IMG/VR virus record: IMGVR_UViG_3300031774_000098
Coordinates: 1-29,218 of that record
Reading direction: 5' to 3' (one strand)
From: a virus
Length of the DNA stretch: 29,218 nt
Position numbers and translations under genes: made by a program. Of this stretch, positions 15,157 through 29,218 are shown piece after piece. The first letter of the stretch is position 1; the number at the start of each line of letters is the position of its first letter. The notes beneath the pieces were generated by a model. That model was given only the letters and a program-made list of their open reading frames with translations, did not search any database and had not been told where the DNA came from.

Positions 15157-18100
15157 CTATTTGGAACGAACAGTTGATAAATACTCAATGCTCTTAATTC
15201 TATACTGTGCTCCGTTATTTCCAGAGACCTTTTCACCACCCATAATTGCATATCCAACAGCACCAGAACCTGTGGTATCTCCACCAGCATTAGTGAATGT
15301 AATTGTTGGGTGTATATTATATGAGTTGTCTACACTCTGCACATAACCATACCCACCATTTGTAAGGGTAATTCCTCCAACTTGGTCGTCAGCAACTGTC
15401 ATAGTAACTGTTCCTGTTGCTCTAATATCGCCAATATCTTCAAATGCCACTGTTGGTATTGCGGAATAGTTTGTTCCTGCATTTTGAATTACAACATCAA
15501 CAATCGTGCTATTCTCAGCAAATTTATATAGATATCCAGCTTCTCCAACATTAACATCACCAGTGTTGAATGCAGTGACATCCTTTAACTGAAGAACTTT
15601 ATTTGATGAATCCCAAGAAACTACTGTTCCTCTAACACTAGATGTATCTCCAGTAACAACTTCATTAACACTAAAGTTTTGACCATTACCATCCAAAGCA
15701 TCTAAAGTTATATTAACAAGAGCATTGTGCTCTCTTCCTTCACTAAGTCCACCTGCTATGGCAATATTTGCATATCTAAATGGTACATTAGCATCTTTGA
15801 CGCTATCACCAACTTGTAATAATGTAGTATTTGTTCCACCTTGCGTTTCTTCAATACCATAAAGAGAATTGTAAATACCACCATCCAAACTAAGTTGGTT
15901 CTCATACTCAGTTGATGTATTGACTAGATCAGGTATACCATCACCATCACCAGAATTTTCTACAATATCTTGGAATTCTTTATCCTGAAGAGATGAAATT
16001 GGGTTTGTAAGAGTTATAATTGTAGATCCTGATACAGTAAGAACAACATGTGGAGAATCATTAGCACCAGCACTACCAGCAACACCAGCATCGAATTGAA
16101 CTGTAGCTTCTTCACTAGATGGAATACCACCATCAATAAATGCTAATTCGTCAATTTCAAATGTTAGTAATAGTTCTCTAGTGCTGGTATTCCAATCATA
16201 AACTTTAGCAATTTTATTACTAGCACTTTCAACTCTACGAATTACTCGATCACCAATATTGAATTTGTATGTAGAAATACCATTGTTATCATTTTGTCCA
16301 TCATCAAGAATAACTCTTTGGTCATAATTAAAGTTTACACCTCTAGTAATACCAGCAAATTTTTCATCTGTTTTACTAGTATATGCAATAGTTTCATAGT
16401 CTAAAATAAATTCACCAGATCCAGGAAAAGCACCAGTATTTGATACATAAATTTCACTAGCAGATGTAGTTACATCTTTAGTAAGACCAGTCAAGTAAAT
16501 ATTTTTAGCATTATTTGCCTGACGAGCTCTAGTCTTACGTTTAAGATTTACCAGTCTCGTAAATATTACATTTGGTGGATTACTATAACCCTCACCTTGA
16601 TCAGTTACAGTAATGCCTGTAATCTGTCCCTGATCGATTGTAGCAACTGCTTTTGCACCTATACCTCCACCACCAGATATAAGAATATATGGAGGTTCCT
16701 GATAGAATTCTCCAGGATCTGCAATAGCAATTGAAGTAACCTTTCCAGTAGTATTGATTTTTGCAGATCCTTGAGCGTCCTGACCTCCTCCTCCTTCAAA
16801 AACCATGGTGGGAGCACTACTATAACTTCTACCAGCACCTAATAATGTTAAACCTGTAACTGTCTGTACTGTAGATGTTCCAGTAGCACCACTTCCTTCA
16901 CCACCTAAAATTCTTGCTTTTGTAGTATTATAATAATTATCACCATTCTTATTCATCTTAACATAGGCAATTGCACCATTCTCATCAAGCACAACATCTC
17001 CAGCAGCACCATCAGGAAAATCTGATACGATTTCTGGAACAATATTTCCTTCAAATAATGGTGTACCGTAAAATTTACGTCCAATAACATATGGATAAAC
17101 AGGATTTCCACTGCCATCCTCTGTCATAAAATATGCATATGTACCATTTGGATAATCTGGAGTTACCGCAAACTTTCCATTAAATTCATCAAGAGTTCCA
17201 ACACCAGAATCGTAAATATAATCTTGTACCAAATCACCTAAAAGATAACCACTTTGAACAGTTCTCAATCCCAGACCACTAGTTTGATATCCAAAAATAT
17301 ATAAAGCATCAGGTGCTGTTGCTGGAACAACAATTTGAATTCTTCTTTGGGTTGCTGCGTTAAATCCAGCAATATATGCAGCATAAGTTACTGTAGAACC
17401 ATCTAGTGTATATGTGACACCTAATTCATACAAATATGAAGTGGTTCCAATACTATTAGAAGGATGCCATCCACCATCAGTTTCTGAAAATAGTAAAAAC
17501 TCACCATTATTAGAAGCATCATCCTGATTGAAAATAAAAGTTTTTCCTCTACCTAAAGATAAGAAATTAGGTCTAGAACCACCAAATAAAAATTCTCCAT
17601 TAGAAACTGTTACAGTATAGTTAGTTGTACCAGTCGTATTTACAGCAGGTCTTGCACCAGGAAGTTCTGTAGTAGTTCTTAATCGATGTGAAGATACTTG
17701 CCGTATAGCAGTACCACTGGAATTATATCCCCAAGGACCATAAATTGGATATCCATCATAGGACATACCAAGAATTTTAGAGTGTCCATCACTCTGACGA
17801 CTATAATCTAAAGTTCCACCAGATCCAAAATGATTTTCAATATAATAATCATTATCTGGATGTTCATCTTCAATTTCATCACTTAAAACCATATATCCTT
17901 CATCTCCCTCATACCCAGACATATATTTGTGATTCTTACAGTAATAATAAATTCTACTATTTTCATCATCATTCATTATGAATAAAGGTTTAAACTCATT
18001 TTCATAATCTGTAGCTGGTGCTGAAGATGCTCCAGTACTTGTATAATAAAGAGTTCCTGGAGTATCATTATGTACACCGTCCTGAGTTGTACTAAAATGC

Positions 18101-19299
18101 ATTGGATGTTGCATTCCACCTGCATTATTTGATGGATCAGTTTGATTCCAAATAATCAAATAATTTCTCTGAACCTTAATATTTTCAGGAGAGAAGTAAT
18201 ATTGTCCAGGAGTAAAGTTACCAAATTCATGAGCATCTGCACCAAAATCAATATAGAAAATGCCATTAGGGAATGTAATAGGATCATCAGATATTTTGAA
18301 TGAAAATCCTGTAGAACCTAAACATAAGTCATTCTTAGAGAAAGAAGACCCAGTAAGTTGTCTTAAATAAATTCTAGTTACAATATTACTACCATCTCTC
18401 ACTACCTTAGAAATTTCTCCAGAGGCATTACCACCAATTTCATCAATAGTTCTACCTACAGCAACTGTTCCGAGTGTTTCATCAACATTTGAAACATCAA
18501 GAGCAATATTATCCATCTCAACCTTTATATTCCACTCAAATTGTTCGAATTTTCCCCATTCAAAAACACCATTTGTAAGTTTAAATTCATCAATAGTTTT
18601 ATTTGATTGATAATATCTTACATTTCCTTCAGTTACCGTATCATAAACACTATTACTTTTAACATAATCATACTTTACCGAATCGATGGCAAAGTTAGTT
18701 GGTGCATTTCCTGTGGTTCCCCATTCTGGTGTATGTAAAAGACCACCATTGGCAAGAATGCCAAGTACTTTGTTATTTTGTTCTGTCCTAACAGTAGGAT
18801 GAGGTACATCTTTACCTCCTCTATAGATAAATGTTTGATCAAAACTTCTATCAATTAATGGTCCACCACCAGGTGCTGCTTCTTCCAGAATGTAAGTGGG
18901 TTTAGGGTGATTATCAGATTGTATACGAAGTCTATCTGTATCTACACTAAAGGTTCCTGAAATTAAAGAGTTTGGATGATCTTGCCAAATTCTATTAATA
19001 TCAAAAGAATTTATAACATTTGGAGTTTCTTGTTCTGGGAAAAACTGTAATCTTAGAGGATCATAACCTCGACCTCTTTCAAGAACTCTTACATGAATAA
19101 TTTGTCCAGAGTCTTCATCAATAATAGGATACAATAATGCAGCTGTATCTGGTGTTCCACAACCAGATATAGTTAATCGTGGTGGATTTGATGAATCATA
19201 TCCCGATCCACCGTCTAATACTCGTATTGCACGTACCCCAAAATTCTCATCAAAAATTGGTTTGATGGAGGCACCTGTACCTGGAACAGTTCTAGTCAT
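15157..19299 (-). CDS. YHYH and cupredoxin-domain virion protein (1380 aa)
   Basis: The N-terminus carries GSGY beta repeats (VLDGGSGYDSSNPPRLTISG). A cupredoxin-like domain spans about residues 350-475, with a full type 1 copper ligand set: His398 (or His401) in GMQHPMHF, then Cys454, His457 and Met460 in YYYCKNHKYM. A YHYH domain follows (about 480-545, GMSYDGYPIYGPWGY). A second cupredoxin-like segment (about 570-690) has lost the ligands. Residues 790-915 hold a run of GSGY-type repeats (SYSSAPTMVFEGGGG, EGYSNPPNVIF), then an FPGSGEFILDYETIAY module (about 915-1010). A TSG-type module and further GSGY repeats occupy about 1240-1365. The gene starts 5 nt after the 406-aa gene. YHYH proteins occur in the tail clusters of marine T4-like phages; their exact place in the virion is unknown to me. 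No signal peptide is present. Confidence 0.85.
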   Translation of the reverse strand: MTRTVPGTGASIKPIFDENFGVRAIRVLDGGSGYDSSNPPRLTISGCGTPDTAALLYPIIDEDSGQIIHVRVLERGRGYDPLRLQFFPEQETPNVINSFDINRIWQDHPNSLISGTFSVDTDRLRIQSDNHPKPTYILEEAAPGGGPLIDRSFDQTFIYRGGKDVPHPTVRTEQNNKVLGILANGGLLHTPEWGTTGNAPTNFAIDSVKYDYVKSNSVYDTVTEGNVRYYQSNKTIDEFKLTNGVFEWGKFEQFEWNIKVEMDNIALDVSNVDETLGTVAVGRTIDEIGGNASGEISKVVRDGSNIVTRIYLRQLTGSSFSKNDLCLGSTGFSFKISDDPITFPNGIFYIDFGADAHEFGNFTPGQYYFSPENIKVQRNYLIIWNQTDPSNNAGGMQHPMHFSTTQDGVHNDTPGTLYYTSTGASSAPATDYENEFKPLFIMNDDENSRIYYYCKNHKYMSGYEGDEGYMVLSDEIEDEHPDNDYYIENHFGSGGTLDYSRQSDGHSKILGMSYDGYPIYGPWGYNSSGTAIRQVSSHRLRTTTELPGARPAVNTTGTTNYTVTVSNGEFLFGGSRPNFLSLGRGKTFIFNQDDASNNGEFLLFSETDGGWHPSNSIGTTSYLYELGVTYTLDGSTVTYAAYIAGFNAATQRRIQIVVPATAPDALYIFGYQTSGLGLRTVQSGYLLGDLVQDYIYDSGVGTLDEFNGKFAVTPDYPNGTYAYFMTEDGSGNPVYPYVIGRKFYGTPLFEGNIVPEIVSDFPDGAAGDVVLDENGAIAYVKMNKNGDNYYNTTKARILGGEGSGATGTSTVQTVTGLTLLGAGRSYSSAPTMVFEGGGGQDAQGSAKINTTGKVTSIAIADPGEFYQEPPYILISGGGGIGAKAVATIDQGQITGITVTDQGEGYSNPPNVIFTRLVNLKRKTRARQANNAKNIYLTGLTKDVTTSASEIYVSNTGAFPGSGEFILDYETIAYTSKTDEKFAGITRGVNFNYDQRVILDDGQNDNNGISTYKFNIGDRVIRRVESASNKIAKVYDWNTSTRELLLTFEIDELAFIDGGIPSSEEATVQFDAGVAGSAGANDSPHVVLTVSGSTIITLTNPISSLQDKEFQDIVENSGDGDGIPDLVNTSTEYENQLSLDGGIYNSLYGIEETQGGTNTTLLQVGDSVKDANVPFRYANIAIAGGLSEGREHNALVNITLDALDGNGQNFSVNEVVTGDTSSVRGTVVSWDSSNKVLQLKDVTAFNTGDVNVGEAGYLYKFAENSTIVDVVIQNAGTNYSAIPTVAFEDIGDIRATGTVTMTVADDQVGGITLTNGGYGYVQSVDNSYNIHPTITFTNAGGDTTGSGAVGYAIMGGEKVSGNNGAQYRIKSIEYLSTVRSK

Positions 19300-19304
19300 T
19301 TATA

Positions 19305-20525
19305 TTAGTTTAATATATTGATAGTGCCGTTCATAAGAGAATGAACAGTGCATTGATAATAAAGAACGTTTGGAGAATTCATAGGAACAGTCCAATAAAG
19401 AATACTAGTTCCACTACCAGATTGACCAGCTGTATACGGAGTACCACTCAATCCTTGAGTACTTTGAATTCTAAATGGGTGGTTAGTACCAGTTAGGTTG
19501 TCAAATGCGTATGTCATGCCTCGCATAACATACAATGTTGGATCTTCTGTAGCTCCAGCAAATCCAGGACCGTCAAATGTATAGTGACTAGCACCACTAG
19601 CACCCAATTCCCACCAAGTCATAGGACTGCGAGTTACAACCCAGTCAGTTCCATTCCAATATAAAGAATCTCCCTTAGTAATAGAAGGTACATCAGTATC
19701 AGTTAATGCAGCAAGAGTTGTAGTTAAATTGCCATTAAACGCAACTGTAATTGTATCACCAGTAATAGAAGTTACAATATCAGTTCCACCAGCTATAGTA
19801 AGTGTGTCTGTAGTGGAGTTGGCAGTTGTAGATCCAGTATCACCAGCAACCGAAGCAAATAAATTTTGTAAACTCGCACCAGCAGCATCATCACCAGGAA
19901 TAAACTTACTTCCACTAGCACTCCACTTTAAAACTTGTCCATCTGCAATTGGAGTGGATGTAATATCAATATCATTTAAAAGATTAACACTAGAATACTC
20001 AGTAATAAGTTTTGCTCTTACATCGCCAGCACCACCAGCAGTGATGTTAATATTCACATAAGGATTATCATCACCATCAACCGTAAAGAAATAACCAGTA
20101 TTAGTAGCTGCAGGTGCATTACCAAGAGCACTATACTCGTTTTTATATGTAATTGTAGATTCAATACCTACGCTTCCAGTAGCACCGTCAAAAGTAGCAG
20201 TTTGACCTCCAGCACTGATAAGAACATCTCCAGTTCCATTAGGAGCAATAGTAATATTTCCATTTGAAGAAGAAATAATACTATTTCCAGCAACATCTAA
20301 TGCAGAAGTTAACGCATTATAATTACCAGCAACAAAATTAGTGCCATTATATTTCAATACCTCGCCTGTAGCTGGATTGGAGAGATCTATACTTAATGTA
20401 GCATTGTTTCCAAGGGCGGTATATATTTCATTAAAATTATCATTAATTTTATCACCGCCACTTCTCAGCGTATCACCTGTATTATCATTAGCTGTAGTAC
20501 CAATATTTAAGGATTGTTTAGCCAT
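19305..20525 (-). CDS. gp9/gp10-type baseplate protein with C-terminal cupredoxin domain
   Basis: The start MAKQSLNIGTTANDNTGDTL plus RSGGDKINDNFNEIYTALG (residues 1-39) matches the N-terminal motif of T4 gp10 (NIGNVVDDGTGDYLRKGG, KINENFDELYYELG) and, more weakly, gp9. That region joins these proteins to the baseplate. Three short repeats of the form GxxLxxNGTxW occur near residues 54-66, 205-220 and 287-297 (GEVLKYNGTNFVAG, GDSLYWNGTDWVV). The last ~105 residues are a cupredoxin-like domain: DPTLYVMRGMTYAF, then His349 in TNHPFRI, then Cys392, His395 and Met398 in YYQCTVHSLMNG. The 406-aa length is shorter than T4 gp10 (602 aa). A late promoter with the exact TATAAATA octamer lies 20 nt upstream. 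A baseplate-anchored short appendage is likely; copper binding is predicted from motif only. Confidence 0.82.
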   Translation of the reverse strand: MAKQSLNIGTTANDNTGDTLRSGGDKINDNFNEIYTALGNNATLSIDLSNPATGEVLKYNGTNFVAGNYNALTSALDVAGNSIISSSNGNITIAPNGTGDVLISAGGQTATFDGATGSVGIESTITYKNEYSALGNAPAATNTGYFFTVDGDDNPYVNINITAGGAGDVRAKLITEYSSVNLLNDIDITSTPIADGQVLKWSASGSKFIPGDDAAGASLQNLFASVAGDTGSTTANSTTDTLTIAGGTDIVTSITGDTITVAFNGNLTTTLAALTDTDVPSITKGDSLYWNGTDWVVTRSPMTWWELGASGASHYTFDGPGFAGATEDPTLYVMRGMTYAFDNLTGTNHPFRIQSTQGLSGTPYTAGQSGSGTSILYWTVPMNSPNVLYYQCTVHSLMNGTINILN

Positions 20526-20545: not shown

Positions 20546-20553
20546 TATTTATA
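20546..20553 (-). promoter_or_regulatory. Late promoter TATAAATA overlapping the stop codon of the giant gene
   Basis: The minus strand reads CCTATAAATAAC, an exact match to the T4 late promoter octamer. The TAA stop of the upstream giant gene (20551-20549) lies inside the octamer. The ATG of the 406-aa gene follows 20 nt later. It should drive the 406-aa and 1380-aa genes late in infection. Confidence 0.75.
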
Positions 20554-23500
20554 GGATCTCTGGATCTACTAGTTCTTCACCATATAGTGAAAGATCTGGT
20601 GGAGTCCAATCTGAAGGAACTGTTGTTTCAACATCGACTCCAGGATCTTGATATCCAGAACCAACATTAGTAACCGTAACTCCTGCAATACCAACAAGTG
20701 CCTTCACCTGACCTTCAAATCCAGAGATAGAATCTAATCTTACAACGGGTCTAGATGTATATCCAGATCCACCAGATGTTACACTAACCCTTTCAATATA
20801 TCCACTAGTTAAGACTGCCGTTGCATTTGCATTTTGTCCAAAGACAGATCCAAGATAATCAAATGTGATCAATGAGTTTGAAGATTCAATAACAGCAACT
20901 TCACGGTCACTTACCTCACCTTCAATATCAATAAAGTCTCCTGCTTCAACTGGTGGTACAACTACATCAGCATCAACGTCTGCCTCAGAACCCACATAAG
21001 AGAATCCTACAAATGTTGATCCAAAACGAGGAACTTCAGAGAATATAATTCTAGAACCAACAAGTTCAAAACCAACACCAGGTTCCTGAAGAACACCATT
21101 AACAGAAATAATAATATTATTTTCTGGTCGAATAGTAGACGATTGAACACCATCAGTAAGTGTAAGCGAGTAGAAAATATCATCACGCTTAAGGTTGAAT
21201 GATTGACGTAAAGAATCAAATTCAAATCCAATATCATCCAATTGTCTCAATTTACCAAGATAGAATCCTGTAAACGATGCACCAAGTTCAGGTGCTTCAC
21301 TAAACTGAATTTTATCAGAGAATGCTGTATATGCATTTCCTGCTCCAGGAGGTTGTAAAATACCATTCACAAAGACCATCATGTGACCTTCAGGATCAGG
21401 AAGGTATTGCTGACCATTGGCAGTAGTTAAATTAAATGTGGTTTGAGTTCCATCAAATCCCTTAAAGAATCTCTTAGTCCTTGCTTTAAGAACTTTTTTA
21501 CCAATAGATGCAGATCTATAATTATCTCCTCCTCGGAGACCATCTCTTGCACTAAAGGTTCCATTAACGTTAGTGAGATATAATCTCTTATTAATAGAAA
21601 CATCACGAATTTCCTGAATACGAGCAGAAGCTGCACCAGCAACACTCAAATCTCCCGAAACAGTGGCTTTTCCAACTAAGGTTACATTAGTAGTTGAATA
21701 ATCACCAACAGTATCACTAGATCCTATTGTTCCCTCAACAGGAACATAATAGATGTAATTATTGACTGAATCATATTCAGTTATAATACCATAATTATCA
21801 TCATCCTGACCGTCATTAACGATACGATAAAGTCTATTACCAACAGTGAAAGTATTTAAAGTAGAATCTACAGTTACAGTCAATCTCACATGACCAGTAG
21901 AGGCAACTTTGTCTCCTACTTTAACATCAAAACCATTAAATTTCTTAACATCTAAGTATATTTTAGAAGAATTAGGATAAACAACAGATGTTGTTTCAAG
22001 AGATCCAAGAAGAGATGCTGTATCAACAGTTAGTTTTCCTCCAGTATTATCAAGAACTGCTGCAGAATTAATAGTATAAGAAACAGGTTCTGCAGTTTTG
22101 TTGCTTGTAAATCCTTGGAATGCAACATTTTCAACAAAGTTACCTTTAACATTAATGAGATGCATTCTACTATCAATCGCACTAATTTGTGCAAGTGTTG
22201 TATTTGCTGCACCTTGAATTACATCCGTAACTTGCCATGTTCCTGCGGTTACAGCAACATCGAGATAACTATAATTAGCATCTTCATGGAAACCATATAC
22301 AACACCAGTAATTCCAGAATCACCTTGCTTCTGTACAGATTCATTCATTGTGAATGGACCATCTGTAATATTTCCATCAATTCTAAATCTCTTATAAACT
22401 TTAGCAACCTTTGCTTCATTTAAAGTAAGTTGTTGAATTTCTGCAGAAACATCAGATGTAACAGAGTAAGCATAATCAGATTGAACTATTTCACCACTAA
22501 TTCCAACAGGAACAACAATATCACCATAAAATTTAGTTAATGTAGGTAATGCATTATTTCCAGTAATTGTAGTGTAATGTTCATTATCTTTCAATTGTCC
22601 AGAAATTATATCCAAACTAGATCCAATTAATGTCATCGCTGTATCTGTATTATAATATGCAGCACTAGCAGTATCATAGAATGGATAGAAACTTGCAGAT
22701 GGTGAAGGACTTACCAAAGTATTGTTGAGTGCTTGTTTCATATATTCTCTCAAAAGATCCAATGCAAATGTTTTGATATTATACTCTGCATTTGTATAGA
22801 ATTCAGTTCCAAGAACAGAAACATATGTTCCAAGTGCTTTTGTAGTAAGTTTAGCACCCCAAAGATATAAACCAGTTCCACCAGTACCAGTCCAATCTAA
22901 TAAACCAGTATTGCTAAGAACACTAATTCTATTTTTCACAGTACTAAATCCATATCCAAAATCTACTGTCATGTATAATCTATACCATCCATCGCCAAGA
23001 GGAATAGATCCATGTGCAGAAACATTCATACCACTAGTAGCAAAGAGACTACCAACTTCACCTGTGTTTAGATTTACACTAAACTGTGCATTTTCAATTC
23101 CAGAATCTAAAAATAATGTAAATCTAATCTGTTGATTTTCTCCTTGTTTCGCAAAGAATGAAGATGTGAATGTTTGTGCTGCACTATTAGCACCAGTATC
23201 AAATGTTTCTGTACTAGAATCCCATTTAATTGTATCAACATCAAAGGTGTCGAATGATGTTAAAGTGTAAGTTCTTTCAATCTTATGCTCACCAGCACTT
23301 GCAGCAACTACAAGTTTTTCAGATGTTAGTGTAGAATCTGGACTAATTGCTGCATTACCAGTAACTGTTAGAAGAGATGTTGCCCAATTTTGATCAAACA
23401 CTTCAGGATTGACCCAAAGATTAGTATTATTAACAGAACCTTGAATTAAAGAAGATACGCTATCTTTAGCATTTTCAATAGTCTTTACATTACTGTAATT

Positions 23501-26500
23501 GTTATACCATTCATGTGCTGCAGTAATACCACCAGTAGCAATTGTAGCAGTAGCACCAGAACCAGGTGCAGTTAAATTAGCTCCTGCTGTATATAATGTT
23601 CCAATAACACTTCCAATAACCATTTTAGATCCAGAAGTATATAAAACAATAGCAGTTGTGGAATTGTTGGTAATGGTTTCTCCAACAACAAAACTACCAG
23701 ATACTGCACTAAAGTCAAGAGTATACGCTGTCTGTGTGTCAACTGTATTAGAAGTAATATAATCATATTGAATGTTGTTAACAACATCGTCAATAAATGA
23801 GTTATATAACCAAGTATTAGAACCAAATTGACTGGTAACTAAAGATGTGATTTCTGCTTTATAGTAATTCTTATTATAAAGAATATTTTTAACTACGCTA
23901 CGTGCTTCAATATCTCCTGGGAATAGAGTATCTAAACCAAAGTCAATAAGATCTCTCATTCTATACCAAACTTTATCAATATCGGTAGGAGTTTCTGTAT
24001 CTCTATATGCATCAATATTTGTATGTGTTGCTGCATATTGCTGACCAGATACACTAGTATTACTACTGTAAAGTAAATTCTTAATTGCTTTTTCAGATAA
24101 TGTTTTTATTAATTCATGAGCAAAGAAGAATGCATATAGTTCATCACCAACAGGAGTAATTTTCTTAGTTGCATCCAAGAATTTTTCCATTTGAGTGATA
24201 ACACTATTATTACCACCTGTTTGAAGATCTGAAATTGCAGCAATTATAAACTCTTCGATATAAGTTCTATAATCTGAATAGTCATAAGTTGATGCAGCGT
24301 AACTACCACTATCGATTGTGTATTGAAGTTCTGTTCCGAGTAATCCAAGAGAAGATTGCTTACCAGCAATTTCCTGAGTGATGTAATCTCTATTAAAGTA
24401 AAGTCTATTACCACCAATATCATAATCACTTCCAGTAGGAGCAATGATGTCATTAACAGTTGTGATCAGAGTATCAATTGCATCCTTAACATTAGCACAA
24501 TCACCAGGAACTGTTACACAGTTAGCAATTGCTGAAACAAATGTGTGTGGAGAATCAATAGAAGTTGGTTTGCCATCAGTTACATTTACTGTAATAGTAT
24601 CTGCTGTAGATGATAATATTTTAAGATCTCTCTGATATGCATAATCTACACCAGTTGAACGAGGATATGTCTTAGTCTGACCACCAGATGCAGCACCAAC
24701 ATTAACTGTAATTGTAGTTGCTGTAACGCCACTAATAGCAATTGCAGTATTGTATGAAGGATCTGTTGTTCTTGGATAAGTATGTGTTGTTTGATGATTA
24801 TCAGCATCACAAGTAAATGCCAATACATCAGGAGCAATAGTTACCGTATTACTGGTTGTTAGTGCATGGTTTCCAATAGTCATTTCCATGTCACCAGTAG
24901 TAGGATTATAATCAACATCACTGATTACAAATCCTGAAGACTGACCAACATTAACTGTAATTCTTTCTGCTGTAACTGCACTAACTGCAATTGCTGTATT
25001 GTATACAGGGTCAGTTGCTCTTGGATATGTCTTAGTTGCTGTGTTACCATCCATTGCACATGTGAATGATAACTTATCTTGTCCAATAGTAACTCTAGTT
25101 ACTGCTCTCTTAATAGCACCTGCTGCTCCACTTACAAATGTGTGTGTATCTGTATTTGTGGAAGGCGTGACATCTAATACTTGAATATCGAAGGTGTCAG
25201 TAGTAACACCAGAAATTGCGATCCACTTATTACTAATAGGATCATTAGCACGAGGATAAGCAGTTCCTGGAGAGCTAACACCAACATTAACTGTAATAGT
25301 ATCAGTGCCAACAGCAGTAATAGCAATTTCAGTATTATATGAAGGATCAGTTGTTCTTGGATATGAATGAGTTGATCCATAATTATCCATATCACACTGG
25401 AAGTCTAGAGAACCTGCAGCAATTGTTACTGTATCAGAAGTTGTTAAACTATGAGCACCAATGGTTAATACCATTACACCTGTTGTTGGGGTGTAATCAG
25501 CATCAGTAACGTTAAATACGTTACCACCACCACTTACAGCACCAATTGCAGGTCCACCAGTATAATTATGATTGCCAGCACCATATGTGCAACTAAAGGT
25601 TATAGCACCATCATCAAGATAAACTAAATCACCATTGGAGAAGTTATGACCACTAACCTTCAAGGTCATAACACCTGTAGTTGGATTATATGCACTACCA
25701 GCTTCTGCAGTATGTGTAGTAGGAGCTGCTAAACTATGAGATCCAATAGTCATGTCTAACTGACCACTAAGAGGATCGTACTCAGCACCAAGAACATCAA
25801 ACTGAGATCCACCTGATACTGTGATGGCATTAGTTGAAGTACCACCATTATAAGTGTGGAAGGTGTCTGCTCCAGTCACCATAAGTGCATTAGCAATACC
25901 AACATTAACTGTAATTGAAGTCGCTGTAACTGCAGTGATAGTAAGGGTTTTGCCAGATGCAGGATCAGTTGCTCTTGGATATGCATGGTTAGATGCATTA
26001 CCATCCTTAGTACAAGTAAATGTTATACCGTTATTAGCAATAGTAGCTGCATTATCAGTAGTAAGAGTGTGAGTACCAATAAAGATCTCCATCTTACCTG
26101 TGGTTGGATCATAATTTGTTCCAGCCTGTGCTGTAAAGTTTAATCCACCAGCTGCGATAGCATTTTCAGCACCAGTTACAAATGTATGATCTCCAGTATT
26201 AGCATACTTAACTATTCCACCAACATAAGTATGATTTCCACTACCGTATGTGCAACTGAATGATAATGAATTAGTTGCTAATTGGATCATCCTTCCAGCA
26301 GGAACTTGATGTGTTCCAATATTCATAGTTAAATCACCAGATGCAACATCATAGGTTGCAGCAGAAACATTAAACTGTGCTCCTGGAGTATCATTAGTAA
26401 TTCCCCAGTCACCAGTAATAATATTATCAGTATTATTATAATCGAGATCACCACTAACTGCTTGCTTCATGTAATGTGCAAGTCTCTCATGAGCATAAAT

Positions 26501-29218
26501 TGACTGTGGAAGTTGTAATCTAATATGTTGAATTTCATTCTTATTGTCAACATAGAACTTAGCAGCTCTTAAAGTATTTTTATTACCACCATATTGAATA
26601 TCTTTAGCAATACCTTCAACAACAAGTCCCAAATCAGTCTTACATCTTAGAGTACCATTACCACTTCCATCAGCATTTCTAGGCATATCATTTGATAGAT
26701 CAGGATATCTATCAATCATATCAAATGCTGCTTTATCAACAATAACAGAGTTATTTTCAAGTAGTAAGTTCGCAGCATCACGGAACCTATCTTGTGAAGA
26801 TGGATCGATGCGAGGTGTATAAAGAACATTAGTTGCACTATCGTGATATGAAATATCAAGTTCTACTTTATTCAATGCATCAATTATTCCACCTTGGAAT
26901 TCTACTATAGGTTGAAGTTTGCTAATAGTTGCAAGATGATCTATAGGTGTTGCTGCAGATGCGTTAGTGATTGTATCTGTGAGGATATCTATCAAGTTAC
27001 CGATAGTAGAGTATACATCAGCACAATCACCTGTAGTAAAGCTTAGAACCTTAACAGCACCAGAGGTAGCACTAGCAAATGTATGAATATATTGATCTTT
27101 AGCAGGAGAAACACCAACATTAACTGTAATAGTTCCGTCTTGATGTGTTAATCCATCAGCAACTGCAGATACAAATGTATGAGCATCAGTATTTGTGGAA
27201 GGTGTAGATCCTAAGACCTGAATATCAAATGTATTCTGAGTTAAATTAGTAATTTGTGCCCACTTATTACTGATTGGGTCAGTAGATCTTGGATATGACT
27301 TCTGTGCAGCAGGACCAGAAGCACCGCCAAATGCACAACTGAATGTAATAGAATTATCATCCATCTTAATGTGATCACCAGCTTCAAATCCATGATTAGG
27401 AATTGTAAGTGTCATCACACCTGTAGTTGGGTTGTAAGCACCATCAGTAATTGTATGTGTAGTTCCTCCTACAGCAGTAATTGGAAGAACAGCATTGGCA
27501 GCAGGATCAGTTGCTCTAGGATATGATTTCTCTGCAGTATTTCCATCCATCTGACACTTGAATTTAATACCACCAGTTTTAATACCAATGCTATCTGAAG
27601 TTGTTAGTGAATGAGATCCAATAGTAAGAACCATATCACCTGTTGCAGCATTATAAGTTGCACTAGTAGGAGTAAATGTTGGAACTGCTTTACCAACATT
27701 GACTGTAATTGTGGTAGCAGTTTCTGCAGTAATAGCAAGAGATGTTCCAGATGCAGGGTCAGAAGCACGAGGATAAGCAGTTTCTAATGTATTATCATCA
27801 GCATCACAAGTGAAGGTCACACCACCATTATCGATAATAACTGTATTGGAAGTTGTTAAACTGTGTGATCCAATCTCAAGAACCATATCACCTGTTGCAG
27901 GATCATATGTTGTTCCAGATGCAGCAGTAAAGGTTCCAGATGCTCCACCACCAGCAGTGATTGCATTAGTAACACCACTTACAAAGGCATGAACACCTGC
28001 AGGATAAGTTGAATCAGTAATTGTAGTATCAGTCTTCTGTGTCAATCCATGATCACCCTGAACTGTCCAAAGAGTATTTGTGATGATGTACTCAAGCATA
28101 TCATCAACTTTCTCATAAGCAAATAAAGTTTCTTTAACTGCTGGTTCAATTTGTGCAATTTGTACTGGAGTTAAAGTTCTATCAACATAGTAAGATGCAG
28201 CATCCCAAATATGACTGTTAGATCCATTACGAAGATCTTGAACGATTGCATTCAATGAGTCACGAATATCATCTTCACAATTAACACCTGCGTCAGCAAT
28301 AACACCACCAGTTACAGCAGAAACAAATTTATGAGTATAGTTACCACCAGTAACAACTGCATTATCAGCAGCAGATACGAAGTTATGTGTAGAAGTATCT
28401 GATGATGTTCCTACGTTAATTGTAACTGTTCCAGTTTGTTTGATTATTGCACCAGCAGTTGCAGATACAAATGCATGTGTAGATGCATTAATAGATTTTC
28501 CAATATCGAGTGTAAATGTATCAGAATCAACGATAGTTACTTCAACCCACTTACCACTAATAGGATCAGTTTGTCTAGGATAAGACTTACCAGCAGTTGC
28601 AACACCAACATTAATTGAAATAGTATCAGTAGTTACAGCAGTTATTGCTTGAGCAAGATTGTATATTGGGTCTGTTGCTCTAGGATATGAATGAGTAGAA
28701 CCATGTTGATCCTTATCACAAGTAAAGTCAAGAGAATTAGCAGCAATTTTAATTGTATTAGATGTTGTTAATCCATGACCAACACTAGTTAATACCAATA
28801 CACCAGTTCCAGGATCATAAGTTGCACCCGTTACATCTTTATTACCAGCACCAGTTACAGAAATTGCACCAGCAGCAGTTCCACCAACATAAGTGTGAAC
28901 ACCTGCACCACCAAAAGCACAAGAGAATGTAAGTGAATTATCAGCAATTTGAACTCTATTACCACTTGCTAGGTTATGAGCACTAGCAGTATTAATTGTT
29001 AAAATACCAGTTGCATGATCATAAGACGCAGTGCTGACATCCTGAGTTGTTGTTCCAACTGCAGTTACATCAAGAGATGTATTGTATGCAGCATCAGCAA
29101 CTCCAGTGTTGTTAGATGCCCCACCAGCAGTTCCATCAGCACCACTTGCTCTTGGGTATGTTTTCTGAGTTGTGTTACCATCACTATTATAATCACAAGT
29201 AAATGTAAATGAATTTGG
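20549..29218 (-). CDS. Giant repeat-rich virion protein (at least 2889 aa; N-terminus beyond right edge)
   Basis: The frame is open from the right edge to the TAA at 20551-20549. A TTG at 28798 lies inside an ongoing repeat, so it is not a credible start and the true start is outside the window. The upstream part holds beta repeats built from YDPTTGDMVLTIGSHSL, FTCDMDGN, YPRATDP, TITVNVG and HTFVSA motifs, broken by helical modules of about 75 residues near 28293-28063, 26650-26445 and 24285-24065. A jelly-roll, carbohydrate-binding-like domain typical of phage fibres (NLWVNPEVF to GLYLWGAKL) spans about 23436-22810. Near the C-terminus two VNGxLQ modules stand in tandem (21460-20995), followed by two GSGY repeats. 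It precedes the gp10-like gene, the region where T4 carries gp7, but I see no firm gp7 similarity. A long baseplate-linked fibre is the likely role. No enzyme motif was seen. Confidence 0.85.
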   Translation of the reverse strand, partial: PNSFTFTCDYNSDGNTTQKTYPRASGADGTAGGASNNTGVADAAYNTSLDVTAVGTTTQDVSTASYDHATGILTINTASAHNLASGNRVQIADNSLTFSCAFGGAGVHTYVGGTAAGAISVTGAGNKDVTGATYDPGTGVLVLTSVGHGLTTSNTIKIAANSLDFTCDKDQHGSTHSYPRATDPIYNLAQAITAVTTDTISINVGVATAGKSYPRQTDPISGKWVEVTIVDSDTFTLDIGKSINASTHAFVSATAGAIIKQTGTVTINVGTSSDTSTHNFVSAADNAVVTGGNYTHKFVSAVTGGVIADAGVNCEDDIRDSLNAIVQDLRNGSNSHIWDAASYYVDRTLTPVQIAQIEPAVKETLFAYEKVDDMLEYIITNTLWTVQGDHGLTQKTDTTITDSTYPAGVHAFVSGVTNAITAGGGASGTFTAASGTTYDPATGDMVLEIGSHSLTTSNTVIIDNGGVTFTCDADDNTLETAYPRASDPASGTSLAITAETATTITVNVGKAVPTFTPTSATYNAATGDMVLTIGSHSLTTSDSIGIKTGGIKFKCQMDGNTAEKSYPRATDPAANAVLPITAVGGTTHTITDGAYNPTTGVMTLTIPNHGFEAGDHIKMDDNSITFSCAFGGASGPAAQKSYPRSTDPISNKWAQITNLTQNTFDIQVLGSTPSTNTDAHTFVSAVADGLTHQDGTITVNVGVSPAKDQYIHTFASATSGAVKVLSFTTGDCADVYSTIGNLIDILTDTITNASAATPIDHLATISKLQPIVEFQGGIIDALNKVELDISYHDSATNVLYTPRIDPSSQDRFRDAANLLLENNSVIVDKAAFDMIDRYPDLSNDMPRNADGSGNGTLRCKTDLGLVVEGIAKDIQYGGNKNTLRAAKFYVDNKNEIQHIRLQLPQSIYAHERLAHYMKQAVSGDLDYNNTDNIITGDWGITNDTPGAQFNVSAATYDVASGDLTMNIGTHQVPAGRMIQLATNSLSFSCTYGSGNHTYVGGIVKYANTGDHTFVTGAENAIAAGGLNFTAQAGTNYDPTTGKMEIFIGTHTLTTDNAATIANNGITFTCTKDGNASNHAYPRATDPASGKTLTITAVTATSITVNVGIANALMVTGADTFHTYNGGTSTNAITVSGGSQFDVLGAEYDPLSGQLDMTIGSHSLAAPTTHTAEAGSAYNPTTGVMTLKVSGHNFSNGDLVYLDDGAITFSCTYGAGNHNYTGGPAIGAVSGGGNVFNVTDADYTPTTGVMVLTIGAHSLTTSDTVTIAAGSLDFQCDMDNYGSTHSYPRTTDPSYNTEIAITAVGTDTITVNVGVSSPGTAYPRANDPISNKWIAISGVTTDTFDIQVLDVTPSTNTDTHTFVSGAAGAIKRAVTRVTIGQDKLSFTCAMDGNTATKTYPRATDPVYNTAIAVSAVTAERITVNVGQSSGFVISDVDYNPTTGDMEMTIGNHALTTSNTVTIAPDVLAFTCDADNHQTTHTYPRTTDPSYNTAIAISGVTATTITVNVGAASGGQTKTYPRSTGVDYAYQRDLKILSSTADTITVNVTDGKPTSIDSPHTFVSAIANCVTVPGDCANVKDAIDTLITTVNDIIAPTGSDYDIGGNRLYFNRDYITQEIAGKQSSLGLLGTELQYTIDSGSYAASTYDYSDYRTYIEEFIIAAISDLQTGGNNSVITQMEKFLDATKKITPVGDELYAFFFAHELIKTLSEKAIKNLLYSSNTSVSGQQYAATHTNIDAYRDTETPTDIDKVWYRMRDLIDFGLDTLFPGDIEARSVVKNILYNKNYYKAEITSLVTSQFGSNTWLYNSFIDDVVNNIQYDYITSNTVDTQTAYTLDFSAVSGSFVVGETITNNSTTAIVLYTSGSKMVIGSVIGTLYTAGANLTAPGSGATATIATGGITAAHEWYNNYSNVKTIENAKDSVSSLIQGSVNNTNLWVNPEVFDQNWATSLLTVTGNAAISPDSTLTSEKLVVAASAGEHKIERTYTLTSFDTFDVDTIKWDSSTETFDTGANSAAQTFTSSFFAKQGENQQIRFTLFLDSGIENAQFSVNLNTGEVGSLFATSGMNVSAHGSIPLGDGWYRLYMTVDFGYGFSTVKNRISVLSNTGLLDWTGTGGTGLYLWGAKLTTKALGTYVSVLGTEFYTNAEYNIKTFALDLLREYMKQALNNTLVSPSPSASFYPFYDTASAAYYNTDTAMTLIGSSLDIISGQLKDNEHYTTITGNNALPTLTKFYGDIVVPVGISGEIVQSDYAYSVTSDVSAEIQQLTLNEAKVAKVYKRFRIDGNITDGPFTMNESVQKQGDSGITGVVYGFHEDANYSYLDVAVTAGTWQVTDVIQGAANTTLAQISAIDSRMHLINVKGNFVENVAFQGFTSNKTAEPVSYTINSAAVLDNTGGKLTVDTASLLGSLETTSVVYPNSSKIYLDVKKFNGFDVKVGDKVASTGHVRLTVTVDSTLNTFTVGNRLYRIVNDGQDDDNYGIITEYDSVNNYIYYVPVEGTIGSSDTVGDYSTTNVTLVGKATVSGDLSVAGAASARIQEIRDVSINKRLYLTNVNGTFSARDGLRGGDNYRSASIGKKVLKARTKRFFKGFDGTQTTFNLTTANGQQYLPDPEGHMMVFVNGILQPPGAGNAYTAFSDKIQFSEAPELGASFTGFYLGKLRQLDDIGFEFDSLRQSFNLKRDDIFYSLTLTDGVQSSTIRPENNIIISVNGVLQEPGVGFELVGSRIIFSEVPRFGSTFVGFSYVGSEADVDADVVVPPVEAGDFIDIEGEVSDREVAVIESSNSLITFDYLGSVFGQNANATAVLTSGYIERVSVTSGGSGYTSRPVVRLDSISGFEGQVKALVGIAGVTVTNVGSGYQDPGVDVETTVPSDWTPPDLSLYGEELVDPEIL
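20995..21460 (-). repeat. Tandem VNGxLQ beta modules near the giant protein's C-terminus
   Basis: Two adjacent modules of about 75 residues share the order TFNL or SLTL, then VFVNGILQPPG or ISVNGVLQEPG, then IQFSEAPELGASFTGFYLG or IIFSEVPRFGSTFVGFSYVG. The clear alignment shows a tandem duplication. A related VNG/FNGILQE module is present in T4 gp10, which links it to baseplate proteins. Confidence 0.75.
24500..29218 (-). repeat. Coding tandem beta repeats in the giant protein
   Basis: About 12 copies of a Cys-containing strand motif (FTCD or FSCT/FSCA), 12 copies of a YPR motif (mostly YPRxTDP) and 9 copies of an HTFVS-like motif can be counted on the minus strand. The basic unit is roughly 60-75 residues. 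Two subtypes alternate: FTCDxDGN followed by YPRxTDP, and FSCTYGxGNHxYxGG. Copies are diverged at DNA level and are interrupted by helical modules. Limits are approximate and the array continues past the right edge. Confidence 0.8.

Follow-up and report, generated by a model that had tools for sequence, protein, structure and literature searches.

The described proteins with which the present locus can be most closely compared are, on the one hand, gp9 and gp10 of phage T4, in which gp9 is present in 18 copies, and on the other hand, several copper proteins, namely NirK, an enzyme; rusticyanin, a soluble electron carrier; amicyanin, the partner of methylamine dehydrogenase; and plastocyanin (petE), which is also phage-borne. 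So how does the present locus relate to these proteins? The window, that is, the whole stretch of DNA that was analysed, is a virus record of 29,218 bases. Its baseplate genes lie on the minus strand and follow the order seen in Prochlorococcus phage P-SSM7, in which gp9 comes between a very long structural protein and a protein of about 1,380 aa, with gp8 and a further long protein (VrlC in P-SSM7) after these.

The gp9-type connector and its C-terminal domain

The features of the gp9-type gene are the following.

19305..20525, minus strand: gp9-type baseplate wedge/tail-fibre connector of 406 aa (P0001), by open reading frame, phrog_677 and P-SSM7 gp9
20313..20519, minus strand: T4_gp9_10_N domain, P0001 residues 3-71
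19308..19625, minus strand: predicted C-terminal cupredoxin domain (P0003), P0001 residues 301-406, by AlphaFold2, Foldseek, VIA-align and PDB profile matches
19479..19481, minus strand: codon of His349, proposed first His ligand, in NHPF
19350..19352, minus strand: codon of Cys392, proposed Cys ligand, from the sequence and masked-profile conservation
19341..19343, minus strand: codon of His395, proposed second His ligand, on the same grounds
19332..19334, minus strand: codon of Met398, proposed axial ligand, on the same grounds

The earlier note on this DNA placed its putative copper site in a baseplate protein, and this context is borne out by several matches. P0001 belongs to phrog_677, 'baseplate wedge tail fiber protein connector' (E 2.3e-186, residues 1-405), and to the T4_gp9_10_N family (PF07880, 46.3 bits against a cut-off of 25). 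Among the solved T4 proteins, gp10 residues 2-40 match P0001 residues 3-41 and gp9 residues 7-65 match residues 3-61; past residue 61, the sequence search against these proteins gave no match to gp9 or gp10. Identity to P-SSM7 gp9 is 92.5% in the C-terminal domain and 88% in residues 1-299.

Two other genes of the window, both on the minus strand, deserve mention in their own right. The 2749-aa open reading frame at 20549-28798 contains many repeats of the 'TIGSHSLTTSDTVTIAAGSLDF.C...SYPRATDP' type, many of them with Cys and His. The 199-aa protein encoded at 4574-5173 matches DUF6445 and phrog_1644 ('minor coat protein') and contains an HxD...H pattern that we take to be reminiscent of 2-oxoglutarate/Fe(II) oxygenases.

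For P0003, which comprises the last 106 residues of P0001, AlphaFold2 predicts nine strands with a pLDDT of 97.6 and a pTM of 0.89 from an alignment of 137 sequences (members 25-93% identical to the first), all five models scoring 97.5-97.6; an earlier model built with 27 close relatives reached a pLDDT of 66.2 and was not used in the fold searches. The top Foldseek matches in the PDB are NirK (E 1.9e-5), rusticyanin, a pseudoazurin with an amicyanin loop, amicyanin and plastocyanin. At E<=0.001, 22 of the 23 matches are cupredoxins or multicopper oxidases, the one exception being SO1698, an aspartic peptidase by title; the query-normalised TM-scores are moderate, 0.37-0.58 among the 50 matches listed. 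In VIA-align, the best match is the N-terminal region (residues 28-135) of the three-domain NirK of H. denitrificans (6tfd, 2dv6; Z 10.9, rmsd 1.9, 90 residues), and rusticyanin (2cal) aligns with Z 10.0 and rmsd 2.1 over 91 residues. The profile of the 137 relatives, compared to the PDB with hmmsearch, retrieves 61 sequences at E<=1, with NirK at 6.8e-6, the lowest value, rusticyanin at 2.7e-5, amicyanin at 3.3e-5 and plastocyanin at 1.3e-3 at best; among the best 60 of these 61, 59 are blue-copper proteins, copper enzymes or cytochrome oxidase subunit 2, and one is an endopolygalacturonase.

The curated family models give no simple label for this domain. P0003 alone falls below every Pfam and NCBIfam cut-off, and its sole Pfam match is to PF25489 (At5g54830-like domain; 18.1 bits against a cut-off of 27). 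Across the 137 relatives, at E<=0.1, PF25489 is matched by 69, Copper-bind by 35 and Cupredoxin_1 by 7. The NCBIfam amicyanin model (TIGR02657) matches 20 of the 137 at E<=0.01 (best 1.4e-6). P0003 itself gives no NCBIfam row at this threshold, whether for the amicyanin model or for the plastocyanin model TIGR02656, and the plastocyanin family PF00127 gives none for P0001 at E<=1 or for P0003 at E<=0.1.

The predicted Greek-key beta sandwich, together with the sequence-profile relationship, places P0003 in the cupredoxin superfamily, a fold of an already known kind. The structure prediction of residues ~300-406 that the earlier note had proposed as a check came out in its favour as regards the fold, with Foldseek and VIA-align in agreement. 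The description of the domain as 'plastocyanin-like', however, stands with respect to the cupredoxin fold only, given that NirK, rusticyanin and amicyanin resemble it more closely than plastocyanin does, both in fold and in profile.

Conservation of the proposed copper ligands

The ligand loop of P0001 reads C392-T-V-H395-S-L-M398. The protein has three His residues (314, 349 and 395) and a single Cys (392); among 27 aligned relatives, His314 is unconserved (H in 16), while all 27 share the four proposed ligands. In tblastn matches to the first 80 viral loci (84 matches, 80 main and 4 secondary), the first His is kept in 82, the Cys in 84, the second His in 84 and the Met in 83.

To lessen circularity, the four ligand columns were masked in the profile, which was then searched against open reading frames of at least 60 aa from 328 viral or phage loci, the window and 70 cellular loci. 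Of the 640 domains retrieved, 514 have letters at all four positions, and 498 of these read H-C-H-M; the other 126 have gaps at ligand columns and were excluded and, since degenerate, ligand-less copies are among them along with truncated ones, loss of the ligands is under-counted. With the whole loop masked, H-C-H-M is found in 357 of 363 domains (267 of 630 have no letters there). Sampling and ligands are not independent of one another, because some of the patterns used to fetch loci held a ligand residue and the training rows of the masked profile were recruited with the unmasked one. The ligands are accompanied by other near-constant features: a Tyr-x-Cys before the loop; a C-x2-H-x2-M loop, present in 484 of the 499 domains (of 640) with a readable motif; and a Pro following the first His in 484 of the 507 domains that have that His. 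Most small blue-copper proteins have Asn after the first His; the Pro of the phage domain is as in multicopper oxidases.

When representatives are taken at 60% identity, 53 of 64 keep all four ligands; of the remaining 11, nine lack three or four, one lacks the first His only and one has Gln for Met. Under independent loss, 0.64 joint losses of three or four ligands would be expected against the nine observed (P 1.6e-8, uncorrected for relatedness). Ligands that are kept jointly and lost jointly are what a metal site predicts, whichever the metal may be, and we conclude from the sequences that the four positions are jointly constrained, beyond chance.

Alignment to solved proteins points the same way. 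In the PDB profile alignments, NirK and rusticyanin each have a His opposite the first His of the family; opposite the Cys, His and Met stand the corresponding residues of rusticyanin and, free of gaps, of amicyanin, in which the first His is offset by two residues and remains unpaired; we take the aligned residues to be the copper ligands of these proteins. By alignment and conservation, therefore, His, Cys, His and an axial Met occupy the positions homologous to those of a type 1 copper site. The four ligands that the earlier note had read from the letters, His349 in NHPF and Cys392, His395 and Met398 near the C-terminus, are hence confirmed in the sequence and in its relatives. The C-x2-H-x2-M spacing that it had given is present as well, and this is the spacing of amicyanin.

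The neighbouring gene contains further copies of the domain.

15157..19299, minus strand: baseplate wedge protein of 1380 aa (P0002), by phrog_708 (E 0, residues 1-1379) and by gene order as in P-SSM7
17914..18189, minus strand: putative second cupredoxin copy, P0002 residues 371-462, with proposed ligands His398, Cys454, His457 and Met460, by profile match and homologues
17293..17646, minus strand: degenerate copy, P0002 residues 552-669, without the ligand set, between the two halves of a YHYH domain

Among 132 homologues of the second copy, 128 cover the site, and His398, Cys454 and His457 are each kept in all 128 and Met460 in 125 (two gaps and one Ser). The persistence of degenerate copies without ligands implies that the fold can serve without metal.

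The YHYH domain (PF14240) of P0002, at 17116-17826 of the window (residues 492-728), is split by an insert, with profile positions 78-138 before it and 141-183 after it and positions 1-77 unmatched; the degenerate cupredoxin copy lies inside this insert. In P-HM2 (loci L411 and L416), in a protein annotated gp7, an intact copy adjoins a degenerate one whose ligand columns contain K, D, H and T, and P-HM1 (L436 and L439) has an intact and degenerate pair of the same kind.

A domain shared by many phage proteins

Domain matches (E<=0.01) were found in 353 of 50,697 annotated phage records, 343 of which are named Synechococcus phage, Cyanophage or Prochlorococcus phage; most of the 60 matches listed are annotated baseplate wedge tail fiber connector. 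P-SSM7 and Syn9 are among the phages with copies. The position within the protein varies. The viral set accounts for 426 of the 498 intact domains, and these 426 comprise 234 internal and 137 C-terminal ones and 55 near the N-terminus: in S-WAM1, the domain is at the C-terminus of a gp9-like protein, in podovirus P-GSP1 near the N-terminus of a hypothetical protein, and in P-SSM5 within proteins annotated hypothetical. Predicted viral structures with the domain include tail fibre subunits of S-SCSM1 and P-SSM2. The available portion of PMC9602691 gives 45 S-SCSM1 proteins detected in virions by mass spectrometry and, in that portion, does not say whether the copy-bearing protein is among them. 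Phages of non-photosynthetic hosts are represented by a Methylophilales phage (tail fibre protein) and an actinobacterial phage (hypothetical protein). In the profile search, no copy was found in S-PM2, T4, KVP40, HTVC008M or P-SSP7; S-PM2 and HTVC008M belong to the same virus family and yet lack the domain. A copper site on a baseplate appendage had been called unexpected in the earlier note; it is not a one-off, with a second ligand set encoded next door and the domain present in many phages.

Cellular genome contigs contribute 70 loci, mostly with Bacteroidota-type titles; a few look like phage contigs, one of them (L330) encoding a gp9-sized and a 1387-aa reading frame as in cyanophages. 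Here 74 of the 76 domains with letters at the ligand columns read H-C-H-M (79 domains, 3 gapped), a count that we set aside as evidence because one of the two scan patterns contained C..H..M. Among the predicted structures of BFVD, proteins of giant-virus contigs annotated 'Beta-sandwich protein' (Pithovirus LCPAC302 and LCPAC304, Marseillevirus LCMAC201 and LCMAC202) match the same fold, with E from 7e-8 to 3e-6.

Possible copper on the adsorption apparatus: scenario and alternatives

The reading that we favour, to which, as a whole, we assign a probability of roughly 0.6, is that this cyanophage connector of the gp9 type ends in a true cupredoxin domain whose type 1 copper ligand set is intact, as the model and the conserved residues suggest; that the domain represents a mostly cyanophage subfamily of cupredoxins, a module at differing sites of phage proteins, among them several of the tail, baseplate or fibre; and that this module, probably copper-loaded, is used in the adsorption apparatus. 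Because even very different relatives retain the four ligands, phages of this kind may have copper on the machinery by which they attach. Each domain of the mature virion would hold one copper ion, perhaps acquired after release, from seawater or lysate, given that the cytoplasm in which virions assemble is copper-poor. The metal would stiffen the loop end of the sandwich, to which a tail fibre or a ligand of the host surface could then dock, a role that needs no electron transfer. A function in stability or docking appears more likely to us than one in electron transfer.

The evidence has to be weighed against several other readings, some of which dispense with copper altogether. Thus, the domain could be an adhesion or docking module of cupredoxin fold with a purely structural Cys-His-His-Met site that binds zinc, another metal or none, making copper irrelevant. 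That virions are built in the copper-poor cytoplasm and that cupredoxins such as azurin can load zinc speaks for this possibility, as do the degenerate copies, which keep the fold signature without the ligands; but the four ligands, the axial Met included, are kept together in relatives below 60% identity, zinc would not obviously need a conserved Met, and the copy in the neighbouring gene keeps the same ligand set, so that we regard a site indifferent to copper as unlikely albeit worth keeping in mind. That type 1 sites sit, loaded with copper, on the baseplate connectors and fibres of marine tailed phages (here one in gp9 and one in the next gene) and moreover act in adsorption as a functional metal switch or receptor-docking centre is distinctly doubtful. 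A narrower version of docking would turn the copper into bait: the tail-borne site would attach to a copper-uptake or copper-ligand receptor of the host, much as has been proposed for tail iron and siderophore receptors. The presence of the domain on the tail-fibre connector and in phages of different groups would be compatible with such use; in P0001, however, the domain is on the connector and not on the fibre tip, we know of no receptor that would fit, and we hold the bait version to be highly improbable.

The remaining alternatives bring in light and photosynthesis. The redox sensor suggested in the earlier note could be a redox- or light-coupled switch in which a change of the copper's oxidation state at the surface of the host would license the deployment of fibres or the attachment. 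The thin support for it is a contrast between two phages: in the available part of PMC7112961, P-HM2 is unable to adsorb in the dark and P-SSP7 infects in the dark, and P-HM2 has five profile matches (three with all four ligands, one degenerate and one, at 74732, not recovered in the ligand check) whereas P-SSP7 has none. These two phages differ in morphology, however, and the comparison is no test. Moreover, S-PM2, which we take to be a myophage with light-dependent adsorption, has no copy by the profile, P-HM1, which presumably adsorbs in the dark, also has five matches, and copies are found in the phages of non-photosynthetic hosts as well. The sources give little further guidance: in its available text, PMC2984593 attributes light-dependent adsorption only to 'several marine cyanomyoviruses', and the accessible portions of PMC7238727, PMC9229316 and PMC9910659 do not name the phages that fail to adsorb in the dark. 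Given the misfit of S-PM2 and P-HM1, we consider the redox or light switch very unlikely. If the domain were a plastocyanin of host type, captured to serve as an auxiliary metabolic gene, this would explain the blue-copper fold and the annotation of one relative, in S-SCSM2R, as PetE, but the idea can hardly be entertained: the domain makes up the last quarter of a baseplate protein whose N-terminus is of the T4 gp9/10 type, P0003 has no plastocyanin-family match, and P-SSM2 and S-SCSM2R have separate plastocyanin-type genes above the PF00127 cut-off, so that the cupredoxin tail domain is not the phage petE. This candidate was accordingly rejected.

The S-SCSM2R 'PetE' itself (170926-171432) is a protein of 168 aa whose C-terminal part is the cupredoxin tail domain and whose N-terminus resembles that of a domain-bearing P-SSM5 protein. 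A viral 'PetE' call may thus denote a cupredoxin tail domain, not a photosynthesis gene. In the record (PQ898602; L083:5794-6300), this gene adjoins genes annotated FhaB and peptidase S8.

In the open-access literature searched, outside of which lie most subscription papers and all preprints, we found no paper on a conserved, ligand-complete cupredoxin module of phage tails; a term search of the paper on the A-1(L) tail structure gave no 'cupredoxin'. Filled sites would make copper proteins of the tails of many marine cyanophages, with some 18 coppers per virion from gp9 alone under T4-type stoichiometry and more from the neighbouring protein. The copper load would then be measurable, phage adsorption would be linked to copper and perhaps to the redox chemistry of seawater, and the effect of a virion metal on infection could be tested directly.

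Among the known systems, the NirK region that is the best structural match is 19% identical to P0003 and belongs to an enzyme, whereas P0003 is a domain of a virion protein. Rusticyanin pairs its His, Cys, His and Met with the ligands of the P0003 family in the profile alignment but has a longer Cys-to-Met loop and a longer chain. Amicyanin shares the C-x2-H-x2-M loop without gaps, and its NCBIfam model recognises some of the relatives; it differs in the two-residue displacement of the first His and in not being a phage protein. With plastocyanin, P0003 has the fold in common, the profile match being weak, but in phages plastocyanin is a separate gene, whereas P0003 is fused to a baseplate protein and is not a free-standing exported carrier. 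As for T4, its gp9 and gp10 have the N-terminal 40-60 residues in common with P0001, and gp9 and gp8 are near each other in the syntenic P-SSM7; beyond residue 61 of P0001, no sequence match to the T4 proteins was obtained, and the T4 genome has no copy of the domain by the profile.
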